From assembly GCF_900188025.1 (NCBI RefSeq), contig NZ_FZNO01000004.1, forward strand, positions 124,001 through 188,000: a DNA stretch of 64,000 nt, read 5' to 3'. Positions 31,720 to 55,878 of this stretch are shown here, in pieces. Both the position numbers and the translations under genes were made by a program. This DNA comes from Blastococcus mobilis (GTDB lineage Bacteria > Actinomycetota > Actinomycetes > Mycobacteriales > Geodermatophilaceae). Below the pieces are notes generated by a model. The model was given only the letters and a program-made list of their open reading frames with translations, was not told the origin of the DNA and did not search any database. The stretch's first letter is position 1. Every line of letters begins with the position of its first letter.

Positions 31720-31780
31720 GAAAGGACCACCCTTCCCCCCACGCCTCGCAGGCTCGGCGTCGGTCCCTGACGGGTGGCCG
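31720..31780 (+). ncRNA. 3'-end structured element, copy A
   Basis: Starts directly at the stop codon of the dehydrogenase gene with GAAAGGACC. The core hairpin (31741-31760) has stem ACGCC/GGCGT and loop TCGCAGGCTC. GGACC (31724) and GGTCC (31762) form an outer stem, and GGGTGGCC ends the element. Three other copies share loop and layout. It may be a terminator or a 3' UTR signal. Confidence 0.55.
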
Positions 31781-31908
31781 TTCCAGCAGCTCACGTCGAG
31801 GGCCGCCGTTCCCACCGGGGACGGCGGCCGGGCTGAGGTGCCGTCGCCGTTTCCGGCCGCGGACGACGGGCATGCCCCCGGGACCACCGCGGAACTGGAG
31901 GAGGAGCC

Positions 31909-32124
31909 ATGACCGACCCGGCGGGCAGTGACCGGATCCAGCAGGACGTGCCGACCGCATCAGGCACCGGCGACAACAGCGACACCGGGTCCTCGTTCGA
32001 GGACGTGCCGCTGACCCGGGAGGACGCGGTGGCCCGGGACGCCGCCACCCCCGACGACCTGCCCGCGAAGGTCGACGGTGCCGTGGCTCGCGCCGAGCGT
32101 GCCGACCCACCCGGCGGGGCATGA
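31909..32124 (+). CDS. Short acidic, disordered protein
   Basis: 71 residues. GGAGGAGGAGCC directly ahead of the ATG is one of the strongest ribosome binding sites in the window, so it is very likely translated. The product is rich in Asp, Thr, Ala and Gly with no hydrophobic core (ends in DPPGGA). It is followed 45 bases later by a similar acidic frame. No function known. Confidence 0.6.
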   Translation: MTDPAGSDRIQQDVPTASGTGDNSDTGSSFEDVPLTREDAVARDAATPDDLPAKVDGAVARAERADPPGGA

Positions 32125-32169
32125 CCGCGCCCCGTCTCTCCCGACAGCCCGAGGAGCCCGAGGAGCCCC

Positions 32170-32337
32170 ATGAGCGAGTCAGACCCCACCGGCTACCGCG
32201 AGTCGCCCGACACCACCGACGGGCCCGTCGCGGACGACCAGACCGACGACGCACCGGAGGGCGACGCCACCCTCACCACCGACGACGAGGCACAGGAGGA
32301 CGACGGCATCGTCCGTCCGGGCAACGCGCCCGACTGA
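32170..32337 (+). CDS. Short acidic, disordered protein
   Basis: 55 residues starting MSESDPTGYRESPD, with runs of Asp and Glu in the middle and ending VRPGNAPD. GAGGAGCCCC precedes the ATG. It lies in tandem with the acidic protein at 31909 and is closed by a long palindromic terminator. The N-terminal phrase and the run of Asp suggest a conserved small protein of this bacterial group; no function known. Confidence 0.6.
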   Translation: MSESDPTGYRESPDTTDGPVADDQTDDAPEGDATLTTDDEAQEDDGIVRPGNAPD

Positions 32338-32343
32338 GACGCA

Positions 32344-32379
32344 ACGGGCTCCCCGCGACGATCGTCGCGGGGAGCCCGT
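32344..32379. terminator. Perfect 36-bp palindrome, bidirectional terminator
   Basis: ACGGGCTCCCCGCGACG is mirrored exactly on the other side of its centre. It separates the rightward short acidic gene from the leftward transporter gene and can stop transcription from both sides. Confidence 0.7.
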
Positions 32380-32385
32380 GAGGAG

Positions 32386-32445
32386 GGCCCCGCTGCAGGG
32401 TCCCGCGCCGAGCCTGCGAGGCGCGGGGGGCAGAGGGGTCCTTCT
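32386..32445 (-). ncRNA. 3'-end structured element, copy B
   Basis: On the minus strand it starts right after the transporter stop codon with GAAGGACC. The core hairpin (32404-32425) has stem CGCGCC/GGCGCG and loop TCGCAGGCTC, followed by GGGACC and GGGGCC. The loop is identical to copies A and C, the stem is not. Confidence 0.55.
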
Positions 32446-33816
32446 TCAGACCCGCTCGGCCGGGTGGTCCTCCACCTTCGGCACGACGGCGTGGTCGGCA
32501 GCGAGGTCGCGGGAGCGGGTCTCGCGGTACGAGAGGACGGCGACGACCGTCACGACCGCGCAGGCGAGCAGGTACAGCGAGACCCGAGTGGGGTGGGGAT
32601 CCTCGAAGCTGCCCAGCAGCGCCAGCGCGATGAGCGGGGCCGGCGCACCGGCCACCAGTGAGGCCAGCTGCGAGCCGATCCCGACACCCGTGTAGCGGGA
32701 TTTCGTCCCGAACAGCTCGGCGAAGAACGCGGCCTGGGGGCCGTACATCGCCCCGTGGAAGAGCAGGCCCACGGTGATGGCGAAGACGCTGAGCCCGAAG
32801 CTGTCGGCGTCGAGCAGTCCGAAGAGCACGAAGGCCCAGACTCCGATGCCGACGGCGCCGAACAGGTAGACCGGCTTGCGGCCGACCCGGTCGGACAGCG
32901 CCCCCCACAGCGGGATGGTCACCAGGTGGACGGCCGAGGCGATGACCAGGGCGTTCAGGGTGAACGAGGGGTCCGCCCCCTGGGCGTTGATCAAGTAGGA
33001 GAGGCTGAAGGCGGTGAGCACGTAGAAGGAGACGTTCTCGGCGATCCGCGCGCCCATCGCGACGAGGACCTCGCGCTTGTAGTGCCCGAGCACGGTCACG
33101 ATCGGGGCCTTCTCGGCCACGCCGGTCGTGGCCGCCTTCTCGGCCGCGACCCGCTGCGCCTCGAGGAACACCGGCGACTCGCTGACGGCCAGCCGGACGA
33201 ACAGCCCGACGACGATCAGCACCGCCGACAGCAGGAACGGGATGCGCCAGCCCCAGCTCTCGAACGCCGCGTCGGACTGGAAGGCCGCCAGCAGCGCGAG
33301 GACGCCGGTCGCCAGGAGGTTGCCCGCAGGGGCTCCGGCCTGCGGCCAGGACGACCAGAAGCCCCGGTTCTCGGGCTTGCCGTGCTCGGAGACCAGCAGC
33401 ACCGCACCGCCCCACTCGCCACCGAGCGCGAAGCCCTGGACGAGGCGGAGGGTGACCAGGAGGAGCGGGGCCAGCACGCCGACGGTCCCGAACGTGGGCA
33501 GCAGGCCGATGGCGAACGTCGCGCCACCCATCATCAGCAGCGAGATGACCAGCAGCTTCTTGCGGCCGATCCGGTCACCGAAGTGGCCGAAGACCAGGGC
33601 CCCGATCGGCCGGGCCGCGAAACCGACGGCGTAGGTGCCGAAGGACAGCAGCGTGCCGGCGAACTGCGACTGCTCGGGGAAGAACAGCGCGGGGAAGATC
33701 AGCGCCGCCGCGGAGCCGTAGAGGAAGAAGTCGTACCACTCGACGGTGGTGCCGATGACGCTGGCGCCGACGACGCTGCCGAAGCGCGTCGAGGACTGCT
33801 CCGGGGGTGCGGACAT
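32446..33816 (-). CDS. MHS family MFS transporter (metabolite:H+ symporter)
   Basis: 456 residues, twelve membrane spans. Family motifs: GTTVEWYDFFLYGSAAAL at the start of span one, the loop GHFGDRIGRKKLLVISLLMMG and RLVQGFALGGEWGGAVLL. MHS proteins take up organic acids, shikimate, proline or betaine with protons. GAGGAG precedes the ATG at 33816. It is divergent from 3-hydroxybutyrate dehydrogenase with a GAF-PucR regulator after it, so a hydroxy- or ketoacid substrate is a reasonable guess. Confidence 0.9.
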   Translation of the reverse strand: MSAPPEQSSTRFGSVVGASVIGTTVEWYDFFLYGSAAALIFPALFFPEQSQFAGTLLSFGTYAVGFAARPIGALVFGHFGDRIGRKKLLVISLLMMGGATFAIGLLPTFGTVGVLAPLLLVTLRLVQGFALGGEWGGAVLLVSEHGKPENRGFWSSWPQAGAPAGNLLATGVLALLAAFQSDAAFESWGWRIPFLLSAVLIVVGLFVRLAVSESPVFLEAQRVAAEKAATTGVAEKAPIVTVLGHYKREVLVAMGARIAENVSFYVLTAFSLSYLINAQGADPSFTLNALVIASAVHLVTIPLWGALSDRVGRKPVYLFGAVGIGVWAFVLFGLLDADSFGLSVFAITVGLLFHGAMYGPQAAFFAELFGTKSRYTGVGIGSQLASLVAGAPAPLIALALLGSFEDPHPTRVSLYLLACAVVTVVAVLSYRETRSRDLAADHAVVPKVEDHPAERV

Positions 33817-33912
33817 GCAGATCTCCTCGTCGAGGGGCGGTACCTGTCGACGACGACGCTAGGAAGACGACCGCGACCGGGCCATGTGCCGGACCGACCC
33901 GAATGTGACGCC

Positions 33913-33924
33913 CACCATGTGGTG
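33913..33924. promoter_or_regulatory. Small palindrome in the transporter/dehydrogenase divergent region
   Basis: CACCA-TG-TGGTG, 97 bases upstream of the transporter start and about 145 upstream of the dehydrogenase. It could be a site for the GAF-PucR regulator encoded nearby; weak evidence. Confidence 0.25.
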
Positions 33925-34069
33925 TCCGCCCATGCCGAGCGCTCGGTCGCCACGACCGGAGACTCGCCACCGTCCCACCGGAGGGTGTGGCGATGCACCA
34001 TGCCGACGGCGAGCGGAGTGTGCGTCGCGGCCGTGGGGCAGGTCGCACCGGCCGCCTAGCGTTCCGGCC

Positions 34070-34825
34070 ATGGCGGTCAACGGTTCCCTGGTCGGACGGC
34101 GCGCGTTCATCACCGGCGGCGCGTCGGGCATCGGACGCGCCTGCGCCGTCCGCCTCGCGGAGGCCGGTGCCGACGTCGTCGTCGTGGACCGCGATGCGGA
34201 CGCGGCGCTGGCGGCCGCCGCCGAGGTGGGCGGCACCGCTGTGGCGGCCGACCTCTCCGACCTCGATGCCGTGGACCGCCTGGACCTGGCCGTCGACATC
34301 CTGGTCAACAACGCCGGCCTGCAGCACGTCGCGCCGCTGCACGAGTTCCCGGCCGACCGGTTCTCCTACATCCTCCGGCTGATGCTGGAGGCGCCCTTCC
34401 GGCTCGTCCGCGGGGCACTGCCGCACATGTACGAGCGGGGCTGGGGCCGGGTGGTCAACATCAGCTCGATCCACGGGTTGCGGGCCTCGGCGTACAAGTC
34501 CGCCTACGTGACGGCGAAGCACGGCCTGGAAGGCCTGTCGAAGGTGATCGCCCTCGAGGGGGCCGAGCACGGGGTCACCTCGAACTGCGTGAACCCCGCC
34601 TACGTCCGGACGCCGCTCGTCGAAGGCCAGATCGCCGACCAGGCGAAGGCTCACGGACTGTCCGAGGACCAGGTCGTCGAGCAGGTGATGCTCGCGCCGG
34701 CGGCGATCAAGCGGTTGATCGAGCCCGACGAGGTCGCGGAGACGGTGGCCTGGCTGTGCTCGCCGTCCGCGGCCTCGGTCACCGGCACCTCGCTGGTCAT
34801 GGACGGCGGGTGGAGCGCGCATTGA
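34070..34825 (+). CDS. bdhA: 3-hydroxybutyrate dehydrogenase (SDR family)
   Basis: 251 residues from ATG 34070. Rossmann loop TGGASGIGR (15-23), NNAG at 80-83, Ser in NISSIHG and Y146-xxx-K150. The stretch SAYVTAKHGLEGLSKVIALE and the C-terminal QVMLAPAAIKRLIEPDEVAE with TGTSLVMDGGWSAH match D-3-hydroxybutyrate dehydrogenases, which interconvert 3-hydroxybutyrate and acetoacetate with NAD. Its neighbours are a divergent MHS transporter and a downstream regulator, suggesting uptake and use of 3-hydroxybutyrate. Confidence 0.88.
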   Translation: MAVNGSLVGRRAFITGGASGIGRACAVRLAEAGADVVVVDRDADAALAAAAEVGGTAVAADLSDLDAVDRLDLAVDILVNNAGLQHVAPLHEFPADRFSYILRLMLEAPFRLVRGALPHMYERGWGRVVNISSIHGLRASAYKSAYVTAKHGLEGLSKVIALEGAEHGVTSNCVNPAYVRTPLVEGQIADQAKAHGLSEDQVVEQVMLAPAAIKRLIEPDEVAETVAWLCSPSAASVTGTSLVMDGGWSAH

Positions 34826-34830
34826 GCGCG

Positions 34831-34852
34831 CGACCGGCGAGAATGCCGGTCG
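34831..34852 (+). promoter_or_regulatory. Hairpin over the start of the regulator gene
   Basis: CGACCGGC and GCCGGTCG form a perfect 8-bp stem with loop GAGAAT. It begins 6 bases after the dehydrogenase stop and contains the candidate ATG (34843) of the next gene at the loop edge. It may act as a terminator or may limit translation of the regulator. A similar hairpin is at 60857. Confidence 0.4.
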
Positions 34853-36786
34853 TGACCCGGTCCCCGGCCCCACCTCCCGCCGGCGACGGTGCGCGGCCGG
34901 GCGCAGGACGGGCGGCTGAGTTCTTCGAGCTGCTGCTGGAGGACGCCGGGGCGATCGAGTACGAGCGGCCGCTGGTCCGTGCCCGCGCGGCCGGGGCGGA
35001 CGGGGACGAGCTGGCCGAGCTCGAACGGGTGAAGCTGCTGGCCCTGGAGGTGCGGGAGGCCTTCGCCGCCCGCCGCCGTCGGGAATCGGAGCTCTCCGCG
35101 CTCTTCGACACCGCCAACGATCTCGCGGCCCTGCGCGGCGTGGATTCCGTCCTCACCGCCATCGTCCGGCGCGCCCGCCAGCTGCTCGGCACCGACGTCT
35201 CCTACCTGACGCTCAACGACCCCGCCGAGGGCGACACCTACATGCGGGTCACCGACGGCTCGGTCTCCGCCCGCTTCCAGGCGCTGCGGCTGCCGATGGG
35301 AGCCGGGCTGGGCGGGCTGGTGGCGCAGACCGCGGCGCCCTACGCGACGGCCAGCTACTTCACCGACGCGCGCTTCCGGCACACCGACCAAATCAACGAC
35401 GGCGTGCACGACGAGGGGCTGGTCGCCATCCTCGGCGTGCCCCTGATCCGCGGCTCCCAGGTGATCGGCGTGCTGTTCGCCGCCGATCGCACCGAGCGGA
35501 CCTTCGACCGGTCGCAGGTGTCCCTGCTGGGCTCCCTGGCCGCGCACGCCGCGATCGCCCTGGACAACGCCCGGCTCCTCGAGGAGACACGGGCGGCCCT
35601 CGATGAGCTCTCGGCGGCCAGCCGGGAACTGCGCGCCCACACGACCTCGGTGGAGCGTGCGGCCGGGGCGCACGACCGGTTCATCGACGTCGTCCTGCGC
35701 GGGGGCGGTGTCGAGGGCGTCGCGGCCGCGGTGACCGAGGCGCTGGGCGGCAGCATCATCGTGCTGGACGAGGAGGGCCGGATCGTCCCGGCGGACCCCT
35801 CCCCCGCCGCCGAGCTGCCCCCGGACCCCGCCGGGGCGCTCACCCTCGCCCGCTCGACCGGCCGCACGGTGCGCGACGGCAGCTGGTGGACCGCCGCGGT
35901 GACCGTGGACAGCGAGCTGCTCGGCGGTCTGGTGCTGCACCGGGACGACGAGCTCTCCGACGCCGACCAGCGGATCCTCGAGCGGGCCGCGCTGGTCACC
36001 GCGCTGCTCCTGCTCATCCGCCGGACGGCCGGCGAGGCGGAGAACCGCGTGCGGGGCGAGCTGCTGGAGGAGCTCCTCCGCTCACCCCTGCGCGATCCCG
36101 ACGGCGTCCGGGAGCGGGCGCGGCGGCTCGGGGCCGACCTCGACCGGCCGCACGCGATCGTCGTGGTGCGGGCCGAGGAGCGCTGCCGGCCGCGCGCACT
36201 CGCGGCGGCGACCCACCTGGCGGCGACCCGGGGCGGGCTGGCCGGGACGCAGGACGGCTGCGTCGTCCTCTGCCTGCCCGATCTCGCGCCGGGCGCGGCG
36301 GCGAGCACGGTGTGCCGCGACCTGACCAGCGCCGGAGCGGGCCCGGTGACCGTCGGTGGCGCCGGCCCGGTGCGCGGCCCCGCTGCCGTGGCGGCGGCCC
36401 ACGCGGAGGCGGCCCGCTGTGCGGCGACCCTGGTGGCGCTCGGCCGGGCGGGTGGGTCGGCCAGCGCGGAGGAGCTGGGGTTCTTCGGCCTGCTCGTGGG
36501 CGAGGGGCGGAACGTGCAGGGGTTCGTCGACGCGACCCTCGCCCCCGTACTGGAGTACGACGCCAAGCGCGGCACCGACCTGCTGGGCACCCTGCAGGCC
36601 TTCTTCGACGCCGGCAACTCGCCCGCGCGGGCTGCCGAGGCCCTGCGCGTGCACGTCAACACGGTCACCCAGCGGCTGGACCGGGTGGGCCGGCTGCTCG
36701 GCAGGGAGTGGTCCTCGCCCGAGCGGGCGTTGGAGGTCCAGCTGGCGCTGCGGCTGCACCGGCTGACCGGGACCGTCCCGGACTGA
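34843..36786 (+). CDS. GAF domain regulator with PucR-type helix-turn-helix
   Basis: 647 residues from ATG 34843; GTG 34852 is the alternative. A short helical N-terminus is followed by a GAF domain (about 85-250), a helical linker, a second sensory-like region and the C-terminal PucR helix-turn-helix (LLGTLQAFFDAGNSPARAAE, ALRVHVNTVTQRLDRVGRLLG). Proteins of this build control catabolic genes in response to small ligands. It lies 17 bases after 3-hydroxybutyrate dehydrogenase in the same direction and likely controls that gene and the divergent transporter. Confidence 0.85.
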   Translation: MPVVTRSPAPPPAGDGARPGAGRAAEFFELLLEDAGAIEYERPLVRARAAGADGDELAELERVKLLALEVREAFAARRRRESELSALFDTANDLAALRGVDSVLTAIVRRARQLLGTDVSYLTLNDPAEGDTYMRVTDGSVSARFQALRLPMGAGLGGLVAQTAAPYATASYFTDARFRHTDQINDGVHDEGLVAILGVPLIRGSQVIGVLFAADRTERTFDRSQVSLLGSLAAHAAIALDNARLLEETRAALDELSAASRELRAHTTSVERAAGAHDRFIDVVLRGGGVEGVAAAVTEALGGSIIVLDEEGRIVPADPSPAAELPPDPAGALTLARSTGRTVRDGSWWTAAVTVDSELLGGLVLHRDDELSDADQRILERAALVTALLLLIRRTAGEAENRVRGELLEELLRSPLRDPDGVRERARRLGADLDRPHAIVVVRAEERCRPRALAAATHLAATRGGLAGTQDGCVVLCLPDLAPGAAASTVCRDLTSAGAGPVTVGGAGPVRGPAAVAAAHAEAARCAATLVALGRAGGSASAEELGFFGLLVGEGRNVQGFVDATLAPVLEYDAKRGTDLLGTLQAFFDAGNSPARAAEALRVHVNTVTQRLDRVGRLLGREWSSPERALEVQLALRLHRLTGTVPD

Positions 36787-36806
36787 GCACCTCCTACCCT
36801 GGGGCG

Positions 36807-37694
36807 GTGCGTCCGTCCTCGGCTCCCCCGGTGCAGGTCCTGGCGGGGGACGAGTGGACGGCGCTGGCCGCCGCGCACGAGGTCCGGATCGACCGGTGGA
36901 CGGCCCCGCACCAGGAGCGCCGCCGCCGCGGCCAGGCGCACCCGGTGCTGGACTTCCTCTTCACCTACTACTCCGAGACGCCCGGCCGGCTGCGCCGCTG
37001 GCATCCGGGCCCGGGGGTGGCGCTGGCCGCCCCCGCCCCGCACGCTGCCTGGCGGTGGTACGCCCTCGAGGACGGGGCCGTGCGCCTGGACGTCGATGCC
37101 TTCGTGGCCGACCGGGGGGACACCGTCCGCTTCGTCCACCGGCTGCTGGCTGCGACGGCCTCCCGGCCGGCGTTCAGCGGCTGCTTCGGCCTGCACGAGT
37201 GGGCGATGGTCTACCGCGACCGCGACACCCGGCACTCCGTTCCCCTGCGGCTCGGCCCCGAGGGCACTGACTCGGTCGTCGAGGCCCACCAGATCCGGTG
37301 CACGCACTTCGACGCGTTCCGGTTCTTCACGCCCCCGGCCGTGACTCGCAACCGCCTGCGGCCCACCCGCGAGACACAGCCCGACCTCGAGCAGCCGGGC
37401 TGCCTGCACGCCGGGATGGACCTCTACAAGTGGGCCTACAAGCTCAGCCCTGCCGCACCCGGTGAGCTGGTCGCCGACTGCTTCGAGCTGGCCGTCGAGA
37501 TCCGCGAGCTGGACATGCGCGCCTCCCCGTACGACCTGCGGGAGCACGGCTACGAGCCGGTCGCCATCGAGACACCCGAGGGCAAGGCGGAGTACGTGGC
37601 CGCCCAGCGCGGGTTCGCCGAGCGCGGCGCCGTCCTCCGACAGCGACTACTCGACGTCTGCGAGCAACTCACCGGCGGAGCCTTGCATCGCTGA
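36807..37694 (+). CDS. 3-methyladenine DNA glycosylase-like protein (actinobacterial)
   Basis: 295 residues from GTG 36807. The sequence matches an actinobacterial family annotated as 3-methyladenine DNA glycosylase: DRWTAPHQERRRRGQAHPVL, DFLFTYYSETPGRLRRWHPGPG, CFGLHEWAMVYR, and GMDLYKWAYKLSP. I see no helix-hairpin-helix of the AlkA or Tag type, so the enzymatic name rests on database convention and not on a visible active site. It begins 20 bases after the regulator and may be co-transcribed with it. Confidence 0.7.
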   Translation: MRPSSAPPVQVLAGDEWTALAAAHEVRIDRWTAPHQERRRRGQAHPVLDFLFTYYSETPGRLRRWHPGPGVALAAPAPHAAWRWYALEDGAVRLDVDAFVADRGDTVRFVHRLLAATASRPAFSGCFGLHEWAMVYRDRDTRHSVPLRLGPEGTDSVVEAHQIRCTHFDAFRFFTPPAVTRNRLRPTRETQPDLEQPGCLHAGMDLYKWAYKLSPAAPGELVADCFELAVEIRELDMRASPYDLREHGYEPVAIETPEGKAEYVAAQRGFAERGAVLRQRLLDVCEQLTGGALHR

Positions 37695-38018
37695 GGAAAG
37701 GTGCGCGGACCGGCGCGTCGGGATGCTCCACCCGCACCCAGGAGGAGTTCGGGGCTCCCTGGAGCTCGCCGGGTCGCCACGATGCCCGGGACAGCGACGT
37801 CGAGCCTGAGGGGACGGCGCCGCCTGACCAGCTGGCCTCCGCACACACCGGGGATGCCGCTGCGGGGCGAGTGAGTGTCCCGGAGATCGATGCGCGAGGA
37901 CGGCGGTACCTCCGGAACGTTCGCCCGGAGTACCGCGGGCCAGCACTGGCTAGAACGTGCAGGGCACGGCTACCACCGGTGTGCCGCGGCCATCGTGCAC
38001 CCGGTGATGCTCAGCGGG
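37695..38018. other. Intergenic, no gene seen
   Basis: 324 bases between the glycosylase-like gene and the converging His-rich pseudogene. Frames here are low in coding character. I see no clear stem-loop terminator, although one is expected for two convergent genes. Confidence 0.4.
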
Positions 38019-38749
38019 TCAGCCATGGTCGTGACCCGTGCCGTGGCCGTGGCCGTGGCCGTGGCCGTGGCCGTGGCCGTGGTCGGCCCCGTGGTCGCCG
38101 TTCAGCTCACCACAGGCCACCGGAAGCTCGGCCTCCAACGGCGCGCCGAGCGCGGTGATCGGCTCTGGGTCGTACATCCCGTCGTCGTCCAGGTCCTCGC
38201 CGTGGATCACGATGTGCAGGTCGTCGAGTTCGTCGACGACGTCCTCCGGAACGTCGAGGAGGATGCGCTGGTAGGTCAAGGTTCCGTCCTGGCCGGCCAC
38301 GGGCGCCGTGTCGAGATTCAGGCCGGCGGCCGCGCTCGTGTCGCCCTCCGTGCTGAAGGTGACCTGGATCGGGCCGTAAGCGGGCAGCCCATCGGCGGTT
38401 TCGATCAACTGCTCACTGACCCCACCGGCCCGGAACCGTGGGCCCGGGCACTCGTTCTCTGCCTCGAGTTCGCCGTGAATGTGCATGAGGTGGGGCAGCA
38501 GCGGACTGAGCCCGTACGCCGTCACCTGCACCTTCAGGTCGCGGTCGACTTCGACCAGCTGCGCGAAGCCATGCACATCGGACCCGCTGTCGGCCGCGGG
38601 TGATGCGGCACGGGGTCGAGGCGGGCGTGGTAGGTCTCGGCGTCCCACCGATCGTCGTACTGGCCGTCCGATCCGAACGCCGGGGTGACCAGGGCCGGCA
38701 GCAGTGCTGCGCCGGCCAGAACGGTGAACAGTGCTCGATTGCGCATCAT
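38019..38749 (-). pseudogene. Secreted CHRD-like protein with His-rich tail, frameshifted
   Basis: A good start (ATG 38749 or 38746 after ACAGGAGC) opens a signal peptide MMRNRALFTVLAGAALLPAL ending at TPAFGS, then DDRWDAETYHARLDPVPHH. Here the family sequence continues in another frame: AADSGSDVHGFAQL, LPHLMHIHGE, GLPAYGPIQVTFSTEGDTS and VIHGEDLDDDGMYD. One missing base near 38595-38605 would join them. The C-terminus is GDHGADHG followed by His-Gly pairs, encoded by seven exact CCGTGG units (38041-38082). The family is secreted and of unknown function; the tail should bind metal. A sequencing error is possible. Confidence 0.7.
38041..38082 (-). repeat. Hexanucleotide tandem repeat, 7 units
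   Basis: CCGTGG repeated seven times without change, encoding alternating Gly-His on the minus strand. Gain or loss of units keeps the frame and changes only tail length. Confidence 0.85.
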
Positions 38750-44171: not shown

Positions 44172-45005
44172 GTGACCTCGACCCGCACCGGCCGCTGGGT
44201 GCGGCTCGACGGAACCACCAACACCCGCGACCTGGGCGGGCTGCCCACGACCGACGGCGGCCGCACGGTCCCCGGCCGGATCCTCCGCAGCGACAACCTG
44301 CAGACCCTCACCGCGAACGACGTCCGGCGGCTGGTCGGCGAGATCGGTCTCCGTTCGGTGATCGACCTGCGCACGACCGCGGAGATCCTGCTCGAGGGGC
44401 GGGGGCCGCTGCGCGACGTCCCGGAGGTCACCCACCGGCACTTCAGCCTGCTGCCCGAGCGCGGCCACCACACCGACGTCTTCGCGGTGGAGGAGGACGA
44501 CCCCCAGATCGACCTCCCGGCCGGCTGGGCGGAATCCCTGCTCCCTCGGCAGGTCGCGGACCACGACGCGGGCGAGTCGCCGGCCGTGCGCTCCTACCTC
44601 GGATATCTCGGTCAGCGCGCCGACAACGTCGTCGGCGCCCTGCGTGCGATCACCGTGGCCGGGGACGGGGCCGCGGTCGTGCACTGCGCGGCGGGCAAGG
44701 ACCGCACCGGTGTCGTCTGTGCGCTGGCCCTGGCCGTCGCCGGGGTGCCGCACGAGGAGATCGTGGCCGACTACGCGATGACCGCCGACGTCATCGACGC
44801 CCTGGTGGCCAAGCTGGCCACCTCACCGACCTACGCCGACGACATGGTCACCCGGGACGTCGCGAGCCACACGCCGCGGGCGGAGACCATGGACCGGGTG
44901 CTGACCCTGCTCGAGGAGCGGCACGGCGGCCCGGCCGGGTGGCTGGACACGCACGGCTTCGGCGCGGACGAACAGGCCGCGCTGCGCGCCCGGCTGCGGG
45001 ACTGA
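44172..45005 (+). CDS. Tyrosine-protein phosphatase (PtpB-like)
   Basis: 277 residues from GTG 44172. The catalytic loop C172-AAGKD-R178-TG (HCAAGKDRTG) is the CX5R signature of the PtpB/Tyr phosphatase 3 family. TTNTRDLGGLPTTDGG at the N-terminus and DLRTTAE are also typical. These enzymes act on phosphotyrosine, phosphoserine or phosphoinositides; in mycobacteria the relative is a secreted virulence factor, while in soil actinobacteria the substrate is unknown. A 3'-end hairpin of the repeated family lies 13 bases past the stop. Confidence 0.88.
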   Translation: MTSTRTGRWVRLDGTTNTRDLGGLPTTDGGRTVPGRILRSDNLQTLTANDVRRLVGEIGLRSVIDLRTTAEILLEGRGPLRDVPEVTHRHFSLLPERGHHTDVFAVEEDDPQIDLPAGWAESLLPRQVADHDAGESPAVRSYLGYLGQRADNVVGALRAITVAGDGAAVVHCAAGKDRTGVVCALALAVAGVPHEEIVADYAMTADVIDALVAKLATSPTYADDMVTRDVASHTPRAETMDRVLTLLEERHGGPAGWLDTHGFGADEQAALRARLRD

Positions 45006-45017: not shown

Positions 45018-45076
45018 AAGGACCCTGTCCTCCGCACCGCTCGCAGGCTCGCGGCGGGACCCCGCAAGGGGGCCGG
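45018..45076 (+). ncRNA. 3'-end structured element, copy C
   Basis: Begins with GAAGGACC 13 bases after the phosphatase stop codon. The core hairpin (45038-45055) has stem CCGC/GCGG and loop TCGCAGGCTC, then GGGACC and GGGGGCC. The loop is identical to copies A and B while the stem is different but paired. Confidence 0.55.
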
Positions 45077-47700: not shown

Positions 47701-47704
47701 ATGG

Positions 47705-49473: not shown

Positions 49474-49503
49474 GTTGACTTGTCAACGGATCGGACGTAA
49501 AAC
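49474..49503 (+). promoter_or_regulatory. Promoter and palindrome between ptsI and fruR
   Basis: TTGACT (49475-49480) and TAAAAC (49498-49503) are 17 bases apart, a good sigma-70-type promoter reading toward fruR. The -35 lies within the palindrome GTTGAC-TT-GTCAAC (49474-49487), which would let a bound protein block it. The DNA after it, up to about 49530, has repeated CAAC or CAACA motifs and is the most AT-rich patch of this region. Confidence 0.6.
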
Positions 49504-49562
49504 AACAGAGACACAAACCTAAAGCAACACAGTCGGACACAGCCCAGCCACCGGAGGTCCGC

Positions 49563-50333
49563 GTGCTCTACCCCGAGGAGCGCCAGCAGGCGATGGCCGC
49601 GATGGTGGCCGACCGCGGCCGGATCGCCGTCGCGGCCCTGTCCGAGGAGTTCGGGGTCACGACCGAGACGGTGCGCCGCGACCTGGCCGTGCTGGAACGG
49701 GCCGGGATGCTGCGCCGGGTGCACGGCGGCGCGGTTCCGGCCGGCGCGCTGACCCTGGTCGAGCCGGGTCTCAGCGAACGCCACCGCTCGCGCAGCGAGC
49801 AGAAGCGGGCGATCGCCGCGGCGGCCCTCCAGCTCCTCCCCGGGGCGGACGGGAGCATCGCCCTGGACGGCGGGACCACGACGGCCGCCCTCGCGGAGAT
49901 CCTGCCGGCCGACCGTCGGCTGCTCGCCGTCACCTCCTCGGTCCCGATCGCTTCCCGCCTGTCCCTGACCCCCGCCATCACCCTGCACGTGCTCGGCGGG
50001 CGGGTTCGGGGAGTGACGCAGTGCGCGGTCGGCGAGACCACGGTGCGCTCACTGGCCGAGCTCCGGTTCGACGTCGCCTTCCTGGGCGCCAACGGCATCG
50101 CTCCCGGGCACGGTTTCACCACGCCGGACGACGCCGAGGCCGCGGTCAAGCGGGCCATGGTGCGGGCCGGTCAGCGCACGGTCGTGCTCGCCGACAGCAG
50201 CAAGCTGGGGCGGGAGCACCTGGTCCGCTACGCGGCGATCGAGGAGGTGGACGTGCTGGTCACCGATGACGGCGCCGATCCGGAGATGGTCGCGGAGCTG
50301 GAGAAGGCCGGCGTCGAGGTCGTGCTCGCGTGA
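49563..50333 (+). CDS. fruR: DeoR family regulator of fructose PTS
   Basis: 256 residues from GTG 49563 with GGAGG ahead of it. The helix-turn-helix is RGRIAVAALSEEFGVTTETV with RRDLAVLERAGMLRRVHGGA. The effector domain has DGGTTTAALAEIL, FDVAFLGANGI and VVLADSSKLG, as in FruR/GlpR proteins that sense sugar phosphates. It leads the operon fruR-fruK-fruA-ptsH and probably responds to fructose-1-phosphate. The next gene starts beyond a tandem repeat that begins at its stop codon. Confidence 0.9.
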   Translation: MLYPEERQQAMAAMVADRGRIAVAALSEEFGVTTETVRRDLAVLERAGMLRRVHGGAVPAGALTLVEPGLSERHRSRSEQKRAIAAAALQLLPGADGSIALDGGTTTAALAEILPADRRLLAVTSSVPIASRLSLTPAITLHVLGGRVRGVTQCAVGETTVRSLAELRFDVAFLGANGIAPGHGFTTPDDAEAAVKRAMVRAGQRTVVLADSSKLGREHLVRYAAIEEVDVLVTDDGADPEMVAELEKAGVEVVLA

Positions 50334-50479
50334 GCATCGCAGCGAGCGCCAGCGAGCGAGGAGCGGAACGAGACCGGAGTCGAGGCATGAGCACCGCGAG
50401 GACGACGGGCGAGCGAGCATCGCAGCGAGCGCCAGCGAGCGAGGAGCGGAACGAGCCCGGAGTCGAGGCATGAGCACCG
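50332..50479 (+). repeat. Tandem 65-bp repeat between fruR and fruK
   Basis: Copies 50332-50396 and 50415-50479 are identical except for one base (CGAGACCGG against CGAGCCCGG) with a period of 83. Each copy begins GAGCATCGCAGCGAGCGCC and ends with GGCATGAGCACCG. The ATG of the second copy is the fruK start; that of the first opens a 28-codon frame ending in ATGA overlap with fruK. Confidence 0.95.
50387..50473 (+). CDS. 28-codon frame created by the repeat, coupled to fruK
   Basis: Starts at the ATG of the first repeat copy (MSTARTTGERASQRAPASEE) and stops at TGA overlapping the fruK ATG. The sequence is simply the repeat translated and is unlikely to have a function as a protein. Its value may be to bring ribosomes to fruK by coupling. 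Whether it is translated is unknown; the first copy has the same upstream bases as the real fruK start. Confidence 0.25.
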   Translation: MSTARTTGERASQRAPASEERNEPGVEA

Positions 50480-51510
50480 GCCGCGTCGTCACTCTCACGG
50501 CCAACCCCAGCCTGGACCGGACCCTCTCCCTCCCGGGCCCGCTCCGGGAGGGCGGGGTCGTGCGCCTCCTGGACGCCGTGACCGAACCCGGCGGCAAGGG
50601 CGTGAACGTCGCCCGGGCCGTCGCCGCTGCCGGCGGCGAGGCCGTCCCGGTGCTGCCCGCTGCCGAGCACGACCCGATCGTCGCGGCGCTGGCCGAGCGC
50701 GGCCTGCCGCCGGTGACGGTCCCCGTGGACGCCCCGGTGCGCACCAACTACACGCTCACCGCCCCCGACGGGACGACCACCAAGCTGAACGAGCCGGGCA
50801 TCCCGCTGACCGCGCAGACGCGCGCGGCGCTCGCCCGGGCCGTGCGGCTGCACGCCTCCGGCTCCCGCTGGGTGGTGCTCTCGGGCTCGCTGCCGCCCGG
50901 CACGCCGGCCGACTGGTACGCCGAGTTGGTCGCCCTCCTGCGGGACACCGGCGTCCGGATCGCCGTCGACACCTCCGACGACCCGTTGCGGGCGCTGCTC
51001 GCAGGTGGTCGCTCCGGTGCCCCGGACCTCCTCAAGCCCAACTCCGAGGAGCTGGCGTCGCTGGCCGGCGTCCCCGAGGCCGAGCTGCTGGGCGACCCTG
51101 CGGTCGCCCTCGCGGCCGTCCGGGTGCTGCACGAGCAGGGGGTGTCCGAGGTGCTCCTCACGCTGGGCGGCGACGGCGCGGTCCTCTCCACCGCCGACGG
51201 CGGCCTCTGGTCCGCGCGTCCCCCGGAGATCACCGTCCGGAGCACCGTCGGCGCCGGCGACTGCAGCCTCGCCGGCTACCTGCTCGCCGACCTCGCCGGC
51301 GCGCCGCCGGCGGAGCGACTGCGCACCGCCGTCGCCTACGGATCGGCGAGCGCGTCGCTCCCCGGCTCCGCCGTTCCCACCCCGGCCCAGGTGGACGGCT
51401 CCGCAGTACGGGTCCTCGCCGGGATGCCCGGCAGCGAAGCAACGAGCACCAGCGCCGTCCCACCCGCCGGCCCGAACACCGACCCGGCCGCCGGCCGGGT
51501 CGCCCGCTGA
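50470..51510 (+). CDS. fruK: 1-phosphofructokinase
   Basis: 346 residues from ATG 50470 inside the second repeat copy. PfkB family: TANPSLDRTLSLPG, GGKGVNVARAVAAAG, DLLKPNSEELASLAG, and the catalytic STVGAGDCSLAGYL. The opening T-x-NPS-D is characteristic of 1-phosphofructokinase and tagatose-6-phosphate kinase; the neighbouring FruA decides for fructose. It makes fructose-1,6-bisphosphate from the fructose-1-phosphate imported by FruA. About 30 residues at the C-terminus are Ala/Pro-rich and beyond the fold. Confidence 0.92.
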   Translation: MSTGRVVTLTANPSLDRTLSLPGPLREGGVVRLLDAVTEPGGKGVNVARAVAAAGGEAVPVLPAAEHDPIVAALAERGLPPVTVPVDAPVRTNYTLTAPDGTTTKLNEPGIPLTAQTRAALARAVRLHASGSRWVVLSGSLPPGTPADWYAELVALLRDTGVRIAVDTSDDPLRALLAGGRSGAPDLLKPNSEELASLAGVPEAELLGDPAVALAAVRVLHEQGVSEVLLTLGGDGAVLSTADGGLWSARPPEITVRSTVGAGDCSLAGYLLADLAGAPPAERLRTAVAYGSASASLPGSAVPTPAQVDGSAVRVLAGMPGSEATSTSAVPPAGPNTDPAAGRVAR

Positions 51511-51527
51511 CCCCCGGGAGAGGTCCC

Positions 51528-53654
51528 ATGCCCGCACTGATCACCACCGATCTGGTCGCGCTCGACGCCGACCTCGGTGCCGACAAGGGCACGGTCGTGC
51601 GCCGGCTGGCCGACATGGTCGCCGCCGACGGCCGGGCCACCGACGCCGACGCCCTGCACGCCGATGTCCTCGCCCGCGAGGCACAGGCGGCGACGGGCCT
51701 GCCCGGCGGCATCGCCATCCCGCACTGCCGCTCCGAGGCGGTGACCGAGGCCTCGCTCGCCTTCGCCCGCCTCTCGCCGAAGGTGGACTTCGGCGCACCG
51801 GACGGCCCGGCCGACCTCGCGTTCCTGATCGCCGCGCCGGCCCACGGGGACGCCGACCACCTCACCCTGCTCACCGCGCTGGCCCGCGCGCTCGTCCGGC
51901 CGGAGTTCGTGGCCTCGCTGCGCTCGGCGACCTCCGAGGAGGAGGTCGTCCGGCTGGTGGACGAGGTCGTCTCGCCCGCGCCGGTGGCCGCCGCGGCCGC
52001 TCCGGCAGGTGCCCCCGCCACGGGTGCCACTGCTGCCGGTGCCAGCGCAGCCGGCGCTGACGGAGCCGCTGCGGGACGGAAGAGCATCGTCGTCGTCAGC
52101 GCCTGCCCGACCGGCATCGCGCACACGTACATGGCAGCGGACAAGCTGGCCGCCGCCGGCAAGGCGGCGGGTGTCGACGTCCACGTGGAGACGCAGGGCT
52201 CCTCGGGTGCGACGCCGCTCGAGCCGGGCCTCATCCGGTCGGCCGACGCGGTGATCTTCGCCGTCGACGTGGGGGTGCGGGACCAGGGCCGGTTCGCCGG
52301 CAAGCCGGTCGTCCAGAGCGGGACGAAGCGCGCCATCAACGAGCCCGACGTGATGATCCGCGAGGCCCTCGCCGCCGCCGACGACCCGAACGCCCGCCGC
52401 GTGACCGGCGGCGCCGAGGCCGAGACCACCGCCTCCTCCGCAGGCCGGCCCGGCACCGCCACGGAGATCCGCCGCTGGCTGCTCACCGGCGTCAGCTACA
52501 TGATCCCGTTCGTCGCGGCGGGCGGTCTGCTCATCGCGCTGGGCTTCCTCTTCGGCGGTTACCAGATCGTCAACGACAACCCCGACGTCGAGGGACAGAG
52601 CTACGCACTGAGCTGGGTGCTGAACAACTCGTTCCTCGACCTCCCCAGCGCCCCGGGCGTCGAGGGCCTCAACGACGGCTTCCTCGGCTACCTCGGAGCG
52701 GTGTGCACCGTCCTCGGGCAGGCGGCCTTCAGCTTCCTGGTGCCTGCGCTCGCGGGGTACATCGCCTTCGCCATCGCCGACCGCCCGGGCATCGTCCCCG
52801 GCTTCGTCGTCGGCGCGGTGTCCGTCACCGTCGGCGCCGGCTTCATCGGCGGTCTCGTCGGCGGCATCATCGCCGGCTTCGCCGCGCTGTGGATCAGCCG
52901 CTGGAAGCTCCCCGTCGGCGTCCGCGGGCTTCAGCCGGTCGTGATCATCCCGCTGCTGGCCACGCTCATCGCCAGCGGCATCATGGCCGTCCTGCTCGGC
53001 CGTCCGCTCGCCGCCGCCCTGGAGGGGCTGGGCAACTGGCTCAACGGCCTCACCGGCACGTCGGCGATCCTGCTCGGGATCATCCTCGGCCTGATGATGT
53101 GCTTCGACCTGGGCGGCCCGGTCAACAAGGCGGCCTACGTCTTCGCCACCACCGGCCTGACCGCCGCGGCCACCGGCGCGCCGCTCGTCATCATGGCGAC
53201 CGTCATGGCCGCGGGCATGGTGCCGCCGCTGGCGATGGCGCTGAGCACGGCCGTCCGCCCCAAGCTCTACACACCCGCCGAGCGGGACAACGGCAAGGCC
53301 GCCTGGCTGCTGGGTCTGTCCTTCATCTCCGAGGGCGCCATCCCGTTCGCCGCGGCCGACCCGCTCCGGGTCATCCCGTCGATGATGCTCGGCGGCGCCA
53401 CCACCGGCGCGATCGTGGCGGCCAGCGGCGTGGAGCTGCGGGCCCCGCACGGCGGCATCTTCGTGTTCTTCGCGATGCAGGGAGTGCTGATGTTCGTGCT
53501 CGCGCTGGTCGCGGGGGCGGTCGTCGGTGCCGTCGCGGTGACCGTCGCGAAGAGCATCGGCCGCACCGACGCCGACGACGCCCCGGAGGACGCCGTCGAC
53601 CTGGAGCACGCGCACGCCCCGGCCCACGCCCCGGCGCGCGCGGCGACCGCCTGA
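51528..53654 (+). CDS. fruA: PTS fructose transporter, EIIABC fusion
   Basis: 708 residues in order IIA (1-150), Ala-rich linker, IIB (about 185-285), IIC with about nine spans (about 310-690). IIA phospho-His is H66 (GGIAIPHCRSE); IIB phospho-Cys is C193 (VVVSACPTGIAHTYMAADKL). IIC carries GGPVNKAAYVF and PLRVIPSMMLGG. It takes phosphate from HPr and imports fructose as fructose-1-phosphate. Starts 18 bases after fruK with a GGGAGAGG site. The tail contains repeated His-Ala-Pro. Confidence 0.94.
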   Translation: MPALITTDLVALDADLGADKGTVVRRLADMVAADGRATDADALHADVLAREAQAATGLPGGIAIPHCRSEAVTEASLAFARLSPKVDFGAPDGPADLAFLIAAPAHGDADHLTLLTALARALVRPEFVASLRSATSEEEVVRLVDEVVSPAPVAAAAAPAGAPATGATAAGASAAGADGAAAGRKSIVVVSACPTGIAHTYMAADKLAAAGKAAGVDVHVETQGSSGATPLEPGLIRSADAVIFAVDVGVRDQGRFAGKPVVQSGTKRAINEPDVMIREALAAADDPNARRVTGGAEAETTASSAGRPGTATEIRRWLLTGVSYMIPFVAAGGLLIALGFLFGGYQIVNDNPDVEGQSYALSWVLNNSFLDLPSAPGVEGLNDGFLGYLGAVCTVLGQAAFSFLVPALAGYIAFAIADRPGIVPGFVVGAVSVTVGAGFIGGLVGGIIAGFAALWISRWKLPVGVRGLQPVVIIPLLATLIASGIMAVLLGRPLAAALEGLGNWLNGLTGTSAILLGIILGLMMCFDLGGPVNKAAYVFATTGLTAAATGAPLVIMATVMAAGMVPPLAMALSTAVRPKLYTPAERDNGKAAWLLGLSFISEGAIPFAAADPLRVIPSMMLGGATTGAIVAASGVELRAPHGGIFVFFAMQGVLMFVLALVAGAVVGAVAVTVAKSIGRTDADDAPEDAVDLEHAHAPAHAPARAATA

Positions 53655-53701
53655 GCGGCAAGCTCACCACCACCCGTCCCCAGCAGCGAGGAAGACGCCA
53701 G

Positions 53702-53962
53702 ATGCCCAGTCAGACCGTCACCGTCGGCTCCCGGGTCGGGCTGCACGCCCGGCCGGCAGCGCTCATCGCCGAGGCCGTCGGAAAGGCCGGCGTGCCGGTC
53801 ACCCTCGCCACGCCGGGGGGCGCACCGGTGGACGCCGGCTCGCCACTGATGATCATGACGCTCGGCGCCAAGCAGGGCGCCGAGGTCGTGGTCAGCAGCG
53901 ACGACCAGGCCGTGCTCGACCAGATTGCCGGACTCGTCGCCCAGGACCTCGACGCCGAGTAG
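53702..53962 (+). CDS. ptsH: HPr phosphocarrier protein
   Basis: 86 residues. H15 in VGLHARPAA is the phosphorylation site. S47 in DAGSPLMIMTLG stands where the HPr regulatory serine is found, but the usual K-S-I/L-M is altered to GSPLM. It carries phosphate from enzyme I to FruA. Last gene of the fructose operon and followed by a strong terminator. CAGCGAGGAAG upstream serves as ribosome binding site. Confidence 0.94.
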   Translation: MPSQTVTVGSRVGLHARPAALIAEAVGKAGVPVTLATPGGAPVDAGSPLMIMTLGAKQGAEVVVSSDDQAVLDQIAGLVAQDLDAE

Positions 53963-53972
53963 CCGCACACGC

Positions 53973-54011
53973 GACGGCGCCCGCCCCCCCGTCACGGGGG
54001 CGGGCGCCGTC
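53973..54011. terminator. Strong hairpin terminator after ptsH
   Basis: GACGGCGCCCGCCCCC and its complement form a 16-bp stem with a short loop, 10 bases past the ptsH stop. It also faces the end of the leftward SRPBCC gene (54045), so it may serve both. Confidence 0.8.
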
Positions 54012-54044
54012 GTCGTCTCCGGGAGTCGGCCGACTCCCGCGACC

Positions 54045-54512
54045 TCACTGCTGGTCGGGCCTCGGGACGTCCCCGCGCCAGGCGCCGGTCTCGGTGCCGC
54101 GGCTCTCGATGAACTCCTTGAACTTCTTGGCGTCGGCCTTCACCCGGCGGTCGTCGAAGCCCAGGGCGGCGCCGGCCTTCTCGACCAGGCCCTCGGGCTC
54201 CCAGTCGATCTGGATCATCACCCGGGTCCTGGCGTCGTCCAGGCGGTGGAACGTGACCACCCCGGCGTGCTTGGCCTCACCGCTGGTGCTGGTCCAGGCG
54301 ATGCGCTCCTCGGGGTGCTGCTCGGTGATCTCCGCGTCGAACTCGCGCTTCACACCATCGATGTTGGTCACCCAGTGGGTGCGGGTGGCGTCGAGCTGCG
54401 TGATGCGCTCCACGCCGCCCATGAACTGCGGGAACGACTCGAACTGCGTCCACTGGTCGTAGGCGACGCGGATCGGGACGTCGACGTCGACGGCTTCCTG
54501 CACGCTGGCCAT
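54045..54512 (-). CDS. SRPBCC family protein (cyclase/dehydrase-like)
   Basis: 155 residues from ATG 54512. The START-like fold pattern is VQEAVDVDVPIRVAYDQWTQ, FESFPQFMGGVERI, and VTFHRLDDARTRVMIQIDWE. The first 140 residues match polyketide cyclase/dehydrase domain proteins common in actinobacteria, which bind hydrophobic ligands or help stress responses; function here is unknown. It lies 79 bases downstream of the AGE epimerase gene and may share its transcript. Confidence 0.78.
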   Translation of the reverse strand: MASVQEAVDVDVPIRVAYDQWTQFESFPQFMGGVERITQLDATRTHWVTNIDGVKREFDAEITEQHPEERIAWTSTSGEAKHAGVVTFHRLDDARTRVMIQIDWEPEGLVEKAGAALGFDDRRVKADAKKFKEFIESRGTETGAWRGDVPRPDQQ

Positions 54513-54591
54513 GGTGAACCTCCTCGTTCTCTCGGTGGCGTCTGGCCCCGCCCCTACCCCGGTGGCGGTCGTCGGACACCTGTACGAGCAC

Positions 54592-55779
54592 TCAGCGCAG
54601 CGCGGCGGCGACGCTGCCGCGCACCGGGCGGCCGTCGAGCAGCAGCATCTGCGCCAGGTGGTAGGCGTCCGGCTGCCCTGACCAGGTGCCCGTGCCCACG
54701 TCACCGGTGGGGGTCAGCTCGTGGTGCCAGCTGCCGGTGGCGGGATCGGCGAACCGCTGCTCACCGTGCTCGCGCCACCGGCGGGCCAGCTCGCCGTAGT
54801 GCGGTTCGCCGGTGACCTCGCCGAGCACGCACGCGGCCGCGATCGCCTCGCACAGCACCCAGTGCATGCGAGCCTGCACGACCGGGCGGTCGTCCCAGTC
54901 CAGCGTGTACGGGAAGCCGTCGTGCCCGTCCGCTGCCCAGCCGCGCTCCGCCGCCGCCCCGAACAGCGCGACGGCGTCGTCGAGCAACCAGTCCCGGCCG
55001 ACGTGGCCACTTCGGCCCTGGAGGGCCGCGCGGAGGTGCAGCGCGAGCCGCGCCCACTCGAACTGGTGGCCGACGGTCACGCCGTAGGGGCGGAACGGGT
55101 CGGCGGGGCGATCACGGTTGTACTCGGGCAGCGGTGTCCAGTCCGCGGTGAAGTGCTCGGGCAGCCGCCAGTCGCGCTCGCGCGCCCAGCCGTGCACGAC
55201 CCGCTCGGTGGTGCGCAGCGCCTGGGCGCGCAGCCGGTCCGACGTCGCCGGATCGGTCCCGGCCACCGCGTCGGCCGCCGCCAGGGACGCCTCGACGCCG
55301 TGCATGTTCGCGTTGACCCCCCGGTAGGCCTCCAGCGTCGTCCAGCCCCGGTCCCACTCCTCGACCGCGAGCCCGGCGTCGTCGTCCCAGAAGCGGGTCT
55401 GCCAGACGGCCAGCGCCTCGTCGAGCAGCGCCCGCCCGCCGGGTACGCCGGCCGACGTCGACGTGGCACCGGCGAGGACGACGAACGCGTGCACGTACGC
55501 CGCCTTGCGGTCGTCGGCGGTGCTCGACCGCCACCCGCCGTGCTCGCGGTCGTGCAGCGGCCCGTCGGTGAGCGCGGCGACGCCGTGCCGGGCCAGCTCG
55601 TCCGCCCCCGGCCGGCCCGGGAGCGAGGCCAGCCCGAAGACGTGCGTCATCCGCGCCACGATCCACGTCTCGACCGGCCGGCCCCGCACCACTCGCCCGT
55701 CGGCGCCCAGATAGCCGAAGCCACCCTCGGGCAGCCGTGACCGGGCGGCGAAGTCCAGCAGCCGGTCGAGGTCCGTCAT
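54592..55779 (-). CDS. AGE family epimerase/isomerase
   Basis: 395 residues forming the (alpha/alpha)6 barrel of N-acylglucosamine 2-epimerase relatives: GGFGYLGADGRVV, YVHAFVVLAGA, EEWDRGWTTLEAYRGVNANMH, PYGVTVGHQFEWARLALHLR and RMHWVLCEAIAAACV. The histidines in NANMH, GHQFEW and MHWVL are at the positions used by aldose-ketose isomerases such as YihS and mannose isomerase. The likely reaction is between mannose and fructose or related sugars, which would link to the fructose PTS nearby; inferred. Confidence 0.85.
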   Translation of the reverse strand: MTDLDRLLDFAARSRLPEGGFGYLGADGRVVRGRPVETWIVARMTHVFGLASLPGRPGADELARHGVAALTDGPLHDREHGGWRSSTADDRKAAYVHAFVVLAGATSTSAGVPGGRALLDEALAVWQTRFWDDDAGLAVEEWDRGWTTLEAYRGVNANMHGVEASLAAADAVAGTDPATSDRLRAQALRTTERVVHGWARERDWRLPEHFTADWTPLPEYNRDRPADPFRPYGVTVGHQFEWARLALHLRAALQGRSGHVGRDWLLDDAVALFGAAAERGWAADGHDGFPYTLDWDDRPVVQARMHWVLCEAIAAACVLGEVTGEPHYGELARRWREHGEQRFADPATGSWHHELTPTGDVGTGTWSGQPDAYHLAQMLLLDGRPVRGSVAAALR

Positions 55780-55823
55780 GTGCGCCTCCTCGCTGGCCTC
55801 GCGCAGGGTCCCACCGCCCGCCC

Positions 55824-55878
55824 CGTCCCGAGGCTCACCCCGAGCATGCGAGGGGTGAGGAGGACGGGGTCCTCACAT
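55824..55878 (-). ncRNA. 3'-end structured element, copy D
   Basis: On the minus strand it lies 22 bases past the stop of the E2 gene. The core hairpin (55836-55861) has an 8-bp stem CTCACCCC/GGGGTGAG and loop TCGCATGCTC, one base different from copies A-C. A GGACCCC stretch precedes it and itself folds (GAGGAC/GTCCTC). Most divergent of the four. Confidence 0.45.

Follow-up and report, generated by a model that had tools for sequence, protein, structure and literature searches.

Four copies of one short hairpin element lie in a 64,000-nucleotide (nt) stretch of the Blastococcus mobilis draft genome, hereafter the window (contig C73:124001-188000 of the 5.09-Mb genome G000), each in sense orientation behind the stop codon of a gene. 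The upstream genes are predicted to encode an acyl-CoA dehydrogenase, a sugar/major facilitator superfamily (MFS) transporter, a tyrosine phosphatase and a 2-oxoacid dehydrogenase acyltransferase, and are unrelated, as an earlier sequence-only reading of the window had stated. That reading also placed the four hairpins correctly, and the phenomenon has turned out to be larger than it described. Against an expectation of 0.61, the window contains the loop pattern TCGCAKGCTC four times, a number that none of 100 shuffles reached, and a covariance model recovers the same four copies at 58 to 71 bits, with the next window match at 19.5 bits. Measured from predicted genes on the same strand, the model matches start 3, 3, 12 and 25 nt past the stop.

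The unit is a stretch of DNA of about 57 bases (55 to 58 nt), AAGG-A-CC...GGCC, that forms one two-stem hairpin with a fixed loop. As read from 19 copies and an 18-row alignment, AAGG-A-CC leads into an outer stem of 8 to 9 bp and, after a gap of 3 nt, a 7-bp inner stem capped by the 10-nt loop TCGCANGCTC; on the return side 5 to 6 nt separate the inner stem from the outer one, and the unit closes with GGCC. The closing stems of the sequence-only reading correspond only to the top of the inner stem. Because the outer stem (GGaCC...GGCC) encloses the inner one, the preceding GAAGGACC and the following GGGGCC, which had been described as flanking sequences, are the two feet of one structure. Two main sequence classes can be distinguished, with outer stems of about CCCCGTCC/GGACGGGG and CCCCCTGC/GCAGGGGG, and some copies are longer, with an extra tail GTTCCAGCACGTCACC beyond GGCC. 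The flanks follow the consensus (C)TGA-RR-AAGG or NRG-AAGG on the 5' side, and the 3' end reads GGCC-G. The loop had been called fixed, and it is nearly so: eight of its ten bases are constant in 113 to 117 of 117 copies; of the other two, the A is conserved in 100 copies and the base after it varies freely.

Pairing in the stems is maintained by compensatory change. Among 126 distinct rows from this genome, in an alignment that was fitted to the model and is therefore biased toward structure, 91.2% of cells are paired and 13 of 16 pairs have changed on both sides; the covariation score is 0.356 compared with 0.128 after shuffling, no shuffle of 500 reached it, and it is at most 0.076 when the alignment is slid. 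The first alignment (MAFFT) had scored 0.391, with 0.137 in shuffles. The claim that the stems always pair is too strong, as 82 of the 123 rows with letters on both sides show an A.C mismatch at one pair of the inner stem. Together with the unpaired A in GGaCC, seen in most copies displayed, this mismatch indicates that the arms have not simply been perfected. Hairpins are common at high GC content, here 73%, and the copies might be ascribed to chance or to palindromes perfected by template switching during replication. Chance is already refuted by the counts in G000, where the decamer TCGCADGCTC has 171 matches and its reversed control 27, and palindrome correction would remove both the mismatch and the bulged A, so we regard this account as practically dismissed. 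The data thus support selection on a folded strand, either DNA or RNA, the latter being the form that the sequence-only reading had proposed. The lower strand is the more stable fold in 16 of 19 copies, once by merely 0.2 kcal/mol, and outside the conserved mismatch A.C outnumbers G.T by 50 to 26 (p = 0.008), in copies that are related and with 15 of the 50 A.C at one further pair.

The element is abundant, and its distribution follows one bacterial family. A covariance model, R1, finds at least 151 copies in G000, probably a lower bound since 150 candidates were scored, and at E <= 1e-6 it matches 101 of 112 Geodermatophilaceae genomes, 67 of them at least 50 times. The 11 genomes without a match are G028, a member of the same genus, G001, a member of the same family, and nine from three further genera (g5 to g7); copy number is also low in G017 and G007, with two and four matches. 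Within one genus, therefore, it ranges from none detected to at least 151. G028 (4.6 Mb) has no detected copy although synteny is kept at the two blocks compared, and it offers a natural comparison strain for tracing a mobilizing gene. Across the order, with 14 candidates scored per genome, 76 of 397 genomes match, 73 of them in the same family and three in other families with one or two matches each. A pattern scan of named genomes returned at least 116 stretches, and among the 80 listed, 79 are named Geodermatophilus, Blastococcus, Modestobacter or Geodermatophilaceae. One stretch, L257 (SPQJ01000025.1), carries a class 1 consensus copy under the label 'UNVERIFIED_ORG: Bacillus sp. AZ43' and may come from a mislabeled Geodermatophilaceae genome.

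Viral contigs held no exact match of the class 1 pattern, and blastn with one copy as query gave none in plasmids or phages, on which grounds spread on phages or plasmids was rejected. Rfam gave no match in the window at the gathering score, and nothing convincing at E values up to 10 over 31600-32600, which covers the first two copies. The sequence-only reading knew of no described family with this loop, and the part of the literature searched likewise yielded no earlier description of the element. The words Geodermatophil- and Blastococcus do not occur in the available portions of PMC3733652 and PMC12306157, the text on repeats in the accessible part of PMC9686282 concerns CRISPR and chemistry, and the word Actinobacteria is absent from that of PMC2817692.

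Placement relative to genes was assessed over 532 kb of sequence, comprising the window, 20 stretches of 20 kb each and a number of smaller loci, with genes predicted by a simple codon-usage gene finder, so that gene ends are predictions. Dropping one partial match and 10 surplus members of two tandem arrays reduced the 128 distinct matches to 117. Of these, 42 are sense and 16 antisense copies between genes that run in one direction (tandem-sense and tandem-antisense), 42 are convergent, 7 divergent, 6 inside predicted genes and 4 at edges, and the element is thus neither peculiar to the window nor equally frequent within genes or in antisense orientation. Under uniform placement of each copy within its own intergenic gap (20,000 simulations for this set, 10,000 for the second), 2.8 tandem-sense copies would be expected to start within 4 nt of a stop; 22 of 42 do so, and no simulation exceeded 10. 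Convergent copies have their 5' end at a stop in 28 of 42 cases (16.1 expected), and tandem-antisense copies place their other end within 4 nt of a stop in 7 of 16 (1.0 expected). The second set, 164 copies in at least 116 loci from the pattern scan of genome contigs, behaves alike: 55 of 83 tandem-sense copies lie within 4 nt of a stop (5.8 expected, simulation maximum 14), as do 31 of 48 convergent copies (15.5 expected, maximum 25), the rest comprising 10 reversed copies, 6 between divergent genes, 10 at edges and 7 within predicted genes.

The spacing is often exact. Among 296 copies with a clear GGNCC, out of 321 unique copies, TGA ends exactly 4 nt ahead of GG in 94 (CTGA-NN-AAGGACC), compared with a background of 1.0% per position, and C precedes TGA in 89% of those 94. 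CTGA makes up 39 of the 44 TGA stops next to copies but 236 of 367 otherwise (p = 0.0002). Stops beside copies are TAG or TAA in 10 of 54 cases, so the TGA sequence by itself does not define the target. The copies that lie further from stops do so partly because they are nested in other copies.

Comparison of sites among 16 genomes of the same genus points to movement. At the first window copy, E1, the same stop of the acyl-CoA dehydrogenase gene is filled in 3 genomes and empty in 13, and in the filled sites the stop is followed by the element and then by another hairpin, GGCCGCCGTCCC..GGGACGGCGGCC, which is present in most of the 16. At the site of the third copy, E3, G024 and G038 share an orthologous copy with a second right arm, G036 has an outer stem but no inner hairpin, and G035 part of a right arm. 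One convergent gap (L146) holds a copy in one orientation in G000 and in the opposite orientation, at the stop of the other gene, in G027, G031 and G035, with none in the remaining genomes of this comparison. The cleanest pair sets the filled site of G027, CCTGATC-[AAGGACC...GGCC]-GCTCCGTCCACTCC, against the empty sites CCTGATC-GCCGCCCCCACTCC in G026 and CCTGATC-GCCGCCCTTACTTC in G032, with neither duplication nor loss over the adjoining 14 nt. In G031 a copy interrupts a TGATCA that is intact in G034 and G030 and looks like two abutting convergent stops. The L146 site (position 1034) and relatives in L162, L164, L167, L170, L178 and L179 share a motif, GGTCCTTATAGGGTC (reverse CCCTATAAGGACC), and in G027 and G032 the element starts exactly at its AAGGACC. 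Either a remnant copy has turned into part of a promoter-like site or homology guided insertion.

Copies also occur within and behind one another. Class 1 copies lie in the loop of class 2 copies at six places, other nested copies follow the TCG of the loop or lie within the 5' arm, and two head-to-tail arrays hold six copies each (Table 1). In the window, E1 continues into part of the long-form tail (GTTCCAGCAG...), and the hairpin downstream of it is perhaps the gene's own terminator-like hairpin. The 3' end of E3 adjoins the stop of a convergent gene, and GAACACCCCCG, between the upstream stop and E3, may be the remains (5' arm) of an older copy. E3 and E4 would then be insertions into older copies that themselves adjoin a stop, which would account for their offsets of 12 and 25 nt.

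Table 1. Hairpin elements and related features in the window and in other stretches
Feature	Stretch	Position	Strand	Context
E1, core AAGGACC...GGCC	window	31722-31779	+	2 nt past TGA (31717-31719) of acyl-CoA dehydrogenase gene
Separate GC hairpin GGCCGCCGTTCCC..GGGGACGGCGGCC	window	31799-31830		downstream of E1; after the same gene in most relatives, with or without the element
GC hairpin GGCTCCCCGCGACGATCGTCGCGGGGAGCC	window	32344-32379		between convergent gene end and E2; better terminator candidate than the element
E2, core AAGGACC...GGCC	window	32386-32443	-	2 nt past TGA of MFS transporter gene (32446-33816, minus)
E3, core	window	45018-45074	+	12 nt past TGA (45003-45005) of tyrosine phosphatase gene
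E4, class 1 core	window	55819-55874	-	inside probable decayed class 2 copy
Probable decayed outer class 2 copy around E4	window	55795-55896	-	left arm GGCCGTCCTGCCCCCACC, right arm GGTGGGACCCTGCGCGAGGCC; begins 3 nt past TGA of acyltransferase gene
Class 1 copies in loop of class 2 copies		C85:46486, C38:89382, C63:136013, C44:21565, C45:35251, C42:148858		
Head-to-tail array, six copies		C48:66401-66759		period about 60 bp
Head-to-tail array, six copies		C57:257053-257372		period about 53 bp
Second hairpin family	L148	19863	-	same as L011 minus 1495
Second hairpin family	L015	1495	+	
Second hairpin family	L143	14321	-	
Second hairpin family	L147	14691	-	
Second hairpin family	L156	1658, 1883	+	
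Second hairpin family	L160	3565	+	
Second hairpin family	L033	1587, 1741	+	
Second hairpin family	L071	2701, 2779	-	
75-77 bp tandem array	L031	1350-1960 (C51:4938-5409)		near gene start
75-77 bp tandem array	L032	C51:165663-165822		near gene start
75-77 bp tandem array	L033	C51:194092-194255		near gene start

A host signal at the 3' end of genes, be it a terminator, an mRNA-stabilizing hairpin or a protein-binding hairpin, could be under selection, with copies that spread by recombination and exist for their function. The position past stops, the strong covariation, the sense bias between co-directional genes (42 versus 16, and 83 versus 10 in the second set) and the excess between convergent genes (42 of the 107 intergenic copies placed, versus 75 of 417 intergenic regions) would all fit such a signal. 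However, no T-run follows, T making up 0.06 to 0.24 at each of 14 3'-flank positions in copies that do not adjoin a stop there. A terminating ribosome covers the first few nt past the stop, and the foot of the hairpin lies within that footprint. Reversed copies adjoin stops as well, none was detected in G028, and the E1 orthologues are mostly empty while a separate conserved hairpin follows there. We therefore consider a host signal an unlikely explanation, and a terminator, processing or stability role, which the sequence-only reading had offered, finds no support as the reason for the element's existence. Strong support for its third suggestion, dispersal of an element that inserts downstream of genes, comes from the filled and empty sites, nesting, tandem copies, the range in copy number and stop adjacency.

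That the hairpin is a dispersing element with insertion directed to stop codons is, in our judgment, very likely, and it is probably a non-autonomous element of Geodermatophilaceae that resembles repetitive extragenic palindromes (REPs) and is directed to gene ends, not a terminator that evolved in place. A trans-acting factor would recognize the folded single strand, most likely as DNA, by three features (loop, bulged A and A.C mismatch), and would also place new copies at gene ends and within older ones. That a folded single strand is recognized is suggested by arms that change together while loop, bulge and mismatch stay; that the recognized form is single-stranded DNA we propose tentatively, at slightly short of an even chance. 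Survival would then be favored at gene ends because promoters and reading frames are spared. A side effect would be a sense RNA hairpin a few nt past the stop, near enough to hinder terminating ribosomes or to protect mRNA 3' ends. An influence of the element on expression is possible, if on the doubtful side, and an effect on upstream genes, plausible in itself, would be a consequence and not the reason shown for its presence.

Several observations weigh against this interpretation. Movement is deduced from the comparison of sites, transposition itself not having been seen directly, and since flanks differ by 5% to more than 20%, insertion points are exact only to a few nt. The right junction of class 1 within class 2 is identical in five of the six cases, so a composite unit may have spread in place of repeated insertion. 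In G000, 20 of 42 tandem-sense copies do not adjoin a stop, convergent copies have their 3' end at a stop no more often than by chance (17 of 42, 16.1 expected), and the second set contains only 10 reversed copies, of which 3 lie at a stop, where 0.7 are expected and simulations reached 5. The copies are related, so shuffles overstate the significance of covariation, and 47 of 500 shuffles of the first alignment reached its number of further pair types. Finally, no mobilizing enzyme was found in a search that covered Y1 and reverse transcriptase domains. The reverse transcriptase domain RVT_1 is present in just 49 of 112 genomes, does not track copy number and is missing from the copy-rich G027, G029, G030 and G031.

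The Y1 transposase domain PF01797, positive in 5 of 14 control genomes, had no match in G000 or any of the 112 family genomes, and mobilization by a REP-associated tyrosine transposase (RAYT) or IS200-type enzyme was rejected. Insertion in the lagging strand was likewise rejected: in the single-contig genome G087, 80 of 139 copies run along replication (p = 0.09), with the origin assumed at 0 and the terminus assumed mid-genome. A conventional miniature inverted-repeat transposable element (MITE), with double-stranded inverted repeats cut by the DDE transposase of a resident insertion sequence (IS), would explain the ends AAGGaCCCC/GGGGCC, the high copy number and the lack of coding capacity. 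Yet target-site duplications of 3 to 6 nt, sought in 120 copies, showed nothing consistent (best excess 8 observed, 3.25 expected over all offsets), a reader of double-stranded DNA does not require arms that vary and stay complementary, and the loop sequence is conserved, so that we assign a MITE a low probability.

Spread through an RNA template is also conceivable. In such a scheme RNA of the lower strand (5' GGCC...GGUCCUU 3') would be copied into DNA from a nick just past the stop, which would leave the AAGG end precise and the GGCC end variable in the manner of a short interspersed nuclear element (SINE). The AAGG end is indeed tightly placed while the other varies between GGCC and a longer tail, the lower strand is mostly the more stable fold, and the conserved A.C mismatch would be G.U in it. 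Neither an A-tail nor a target duplication is seen, however, and the distribution of reverse transcriptases described above led us to reject dependence on such an enzyme, be it of a group II intron or of a retron, a past or other enzyme source being possible; we find this route quite improbable.

A second hairpin family, TGA.C-TCGC..GCTC-G.TCA, has a loop identical or almost identical to that of the main element, and its stems also co-vary (GC, CC and AC variants). At seven of its 11 places a gene start is predicted on the opposite strand no more than 60 nt away, and several places are also near a predicted stop. Among loop decamers of G000 outside the main element, 12 of 30 have stems of at least 4 bp, about five of these being divergent copies of the main element, and none of 29 reversed decamers does. 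Tandem arrays of 75 to 77 bp with the same decamer lie near gene starts, are open as reading frames on one or the other strand, and possibly add a repeated N-terminal peptide to a gene; they were rejected as copies of the main element, being a different repeat. By a speculative and rather unlikely extension of the dispersing-element interpretation, there would be a new class of mobile hairpins whose insertion some enzyme other than a Y1 transposase or a reverse transcriptase directs to stop codons (TGA, TAG or TAA, in either orientation, with CTGANN^AAGG preferred). The loop TCGCANGCTC, common to the second family, which lies mostly near gene starts, may be what this factor recognizes, and one trans-acting factor would so scatter hairpins to both gene ends across the bacterial family.

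An abundant repeat found family-wide, for which we found no description, thus combines a conserved fold with an unusually exact preferred position, the stop codon. It raises the questions of how so small a non-coding element locates the ends of genes and whether stop-adjacent hairpins alter translation, mRNA decay or read-through of many genes. The element could be usable for strain typing, and hairpins after genes in these genomes need a test before they are annotated as terminators.

The element resembles several known systems without coinciding with any. It differs from intrinsic terminators in having a GC hairpin without a following T-run, and from DDE-type MITEs in having no consistent target-site duplication. 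Mycobacterial interspersed repetitive units (MIRUs) are small actinobacterial repeats inserted at TGA (DTGA stop/start overlaps) at gene junctions in operons, with tandem copies. TGA adjacency and tandem copies are common to both, whereas the present element also lies between convergent genes and has a conserved two-stem hairpin with a loop. None of the 42 tandem-sense copies also adjoins a downstream start codon.

REPs offer the closest likeness. According to the portion of PMC3733652 available, GTAG- and CGTC-tagged palindromes are short, abundant, intergenic imperfect hairpins with stems of 5 to 13 bp, in which pairing is kept and which are often clustered; GTAG REPs are hypothesized to be miniature mobile DNA, and CGTC families apparently have no dedicated transposase. 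A high-copy, extragenic imperfect palindrome is what we find here, with at least 151 copies in G000 and 6 of 117 inside predicted genes. The differences are a two-stem unit of 55 to 58 nt with RRAAGG/GGCC ends, head-to-tail arrays, precise placement at stops and the lack of a general GTAG or CGTC tag at the stem end: TAGAAGG precedes 29 of 202 copies and CACGTCACC lies in the tail of long copies about 10 nt past the stem, neither being general. As that tag is missing, and with it the RAYT of GTAG REPs (no Y1 match in the family genomes), we do not file the element as a REP. In Escherichia coli, REPs within 15 nt of a stop have been reported to stall ribosomes and lower translation (PMC12306157, in the part available, citing its reference 17), and a hairpin a few nt past the stop could have the same effect here. 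The same part of that source puts 446 of the 4,072 REPs predicted in E. coli no more than 15 nt from a stop, compared with the 22 of 42 and 55 of 83 tandem-sense copies that lie within 4 nt in the present genomes, often at a fixed spacing.

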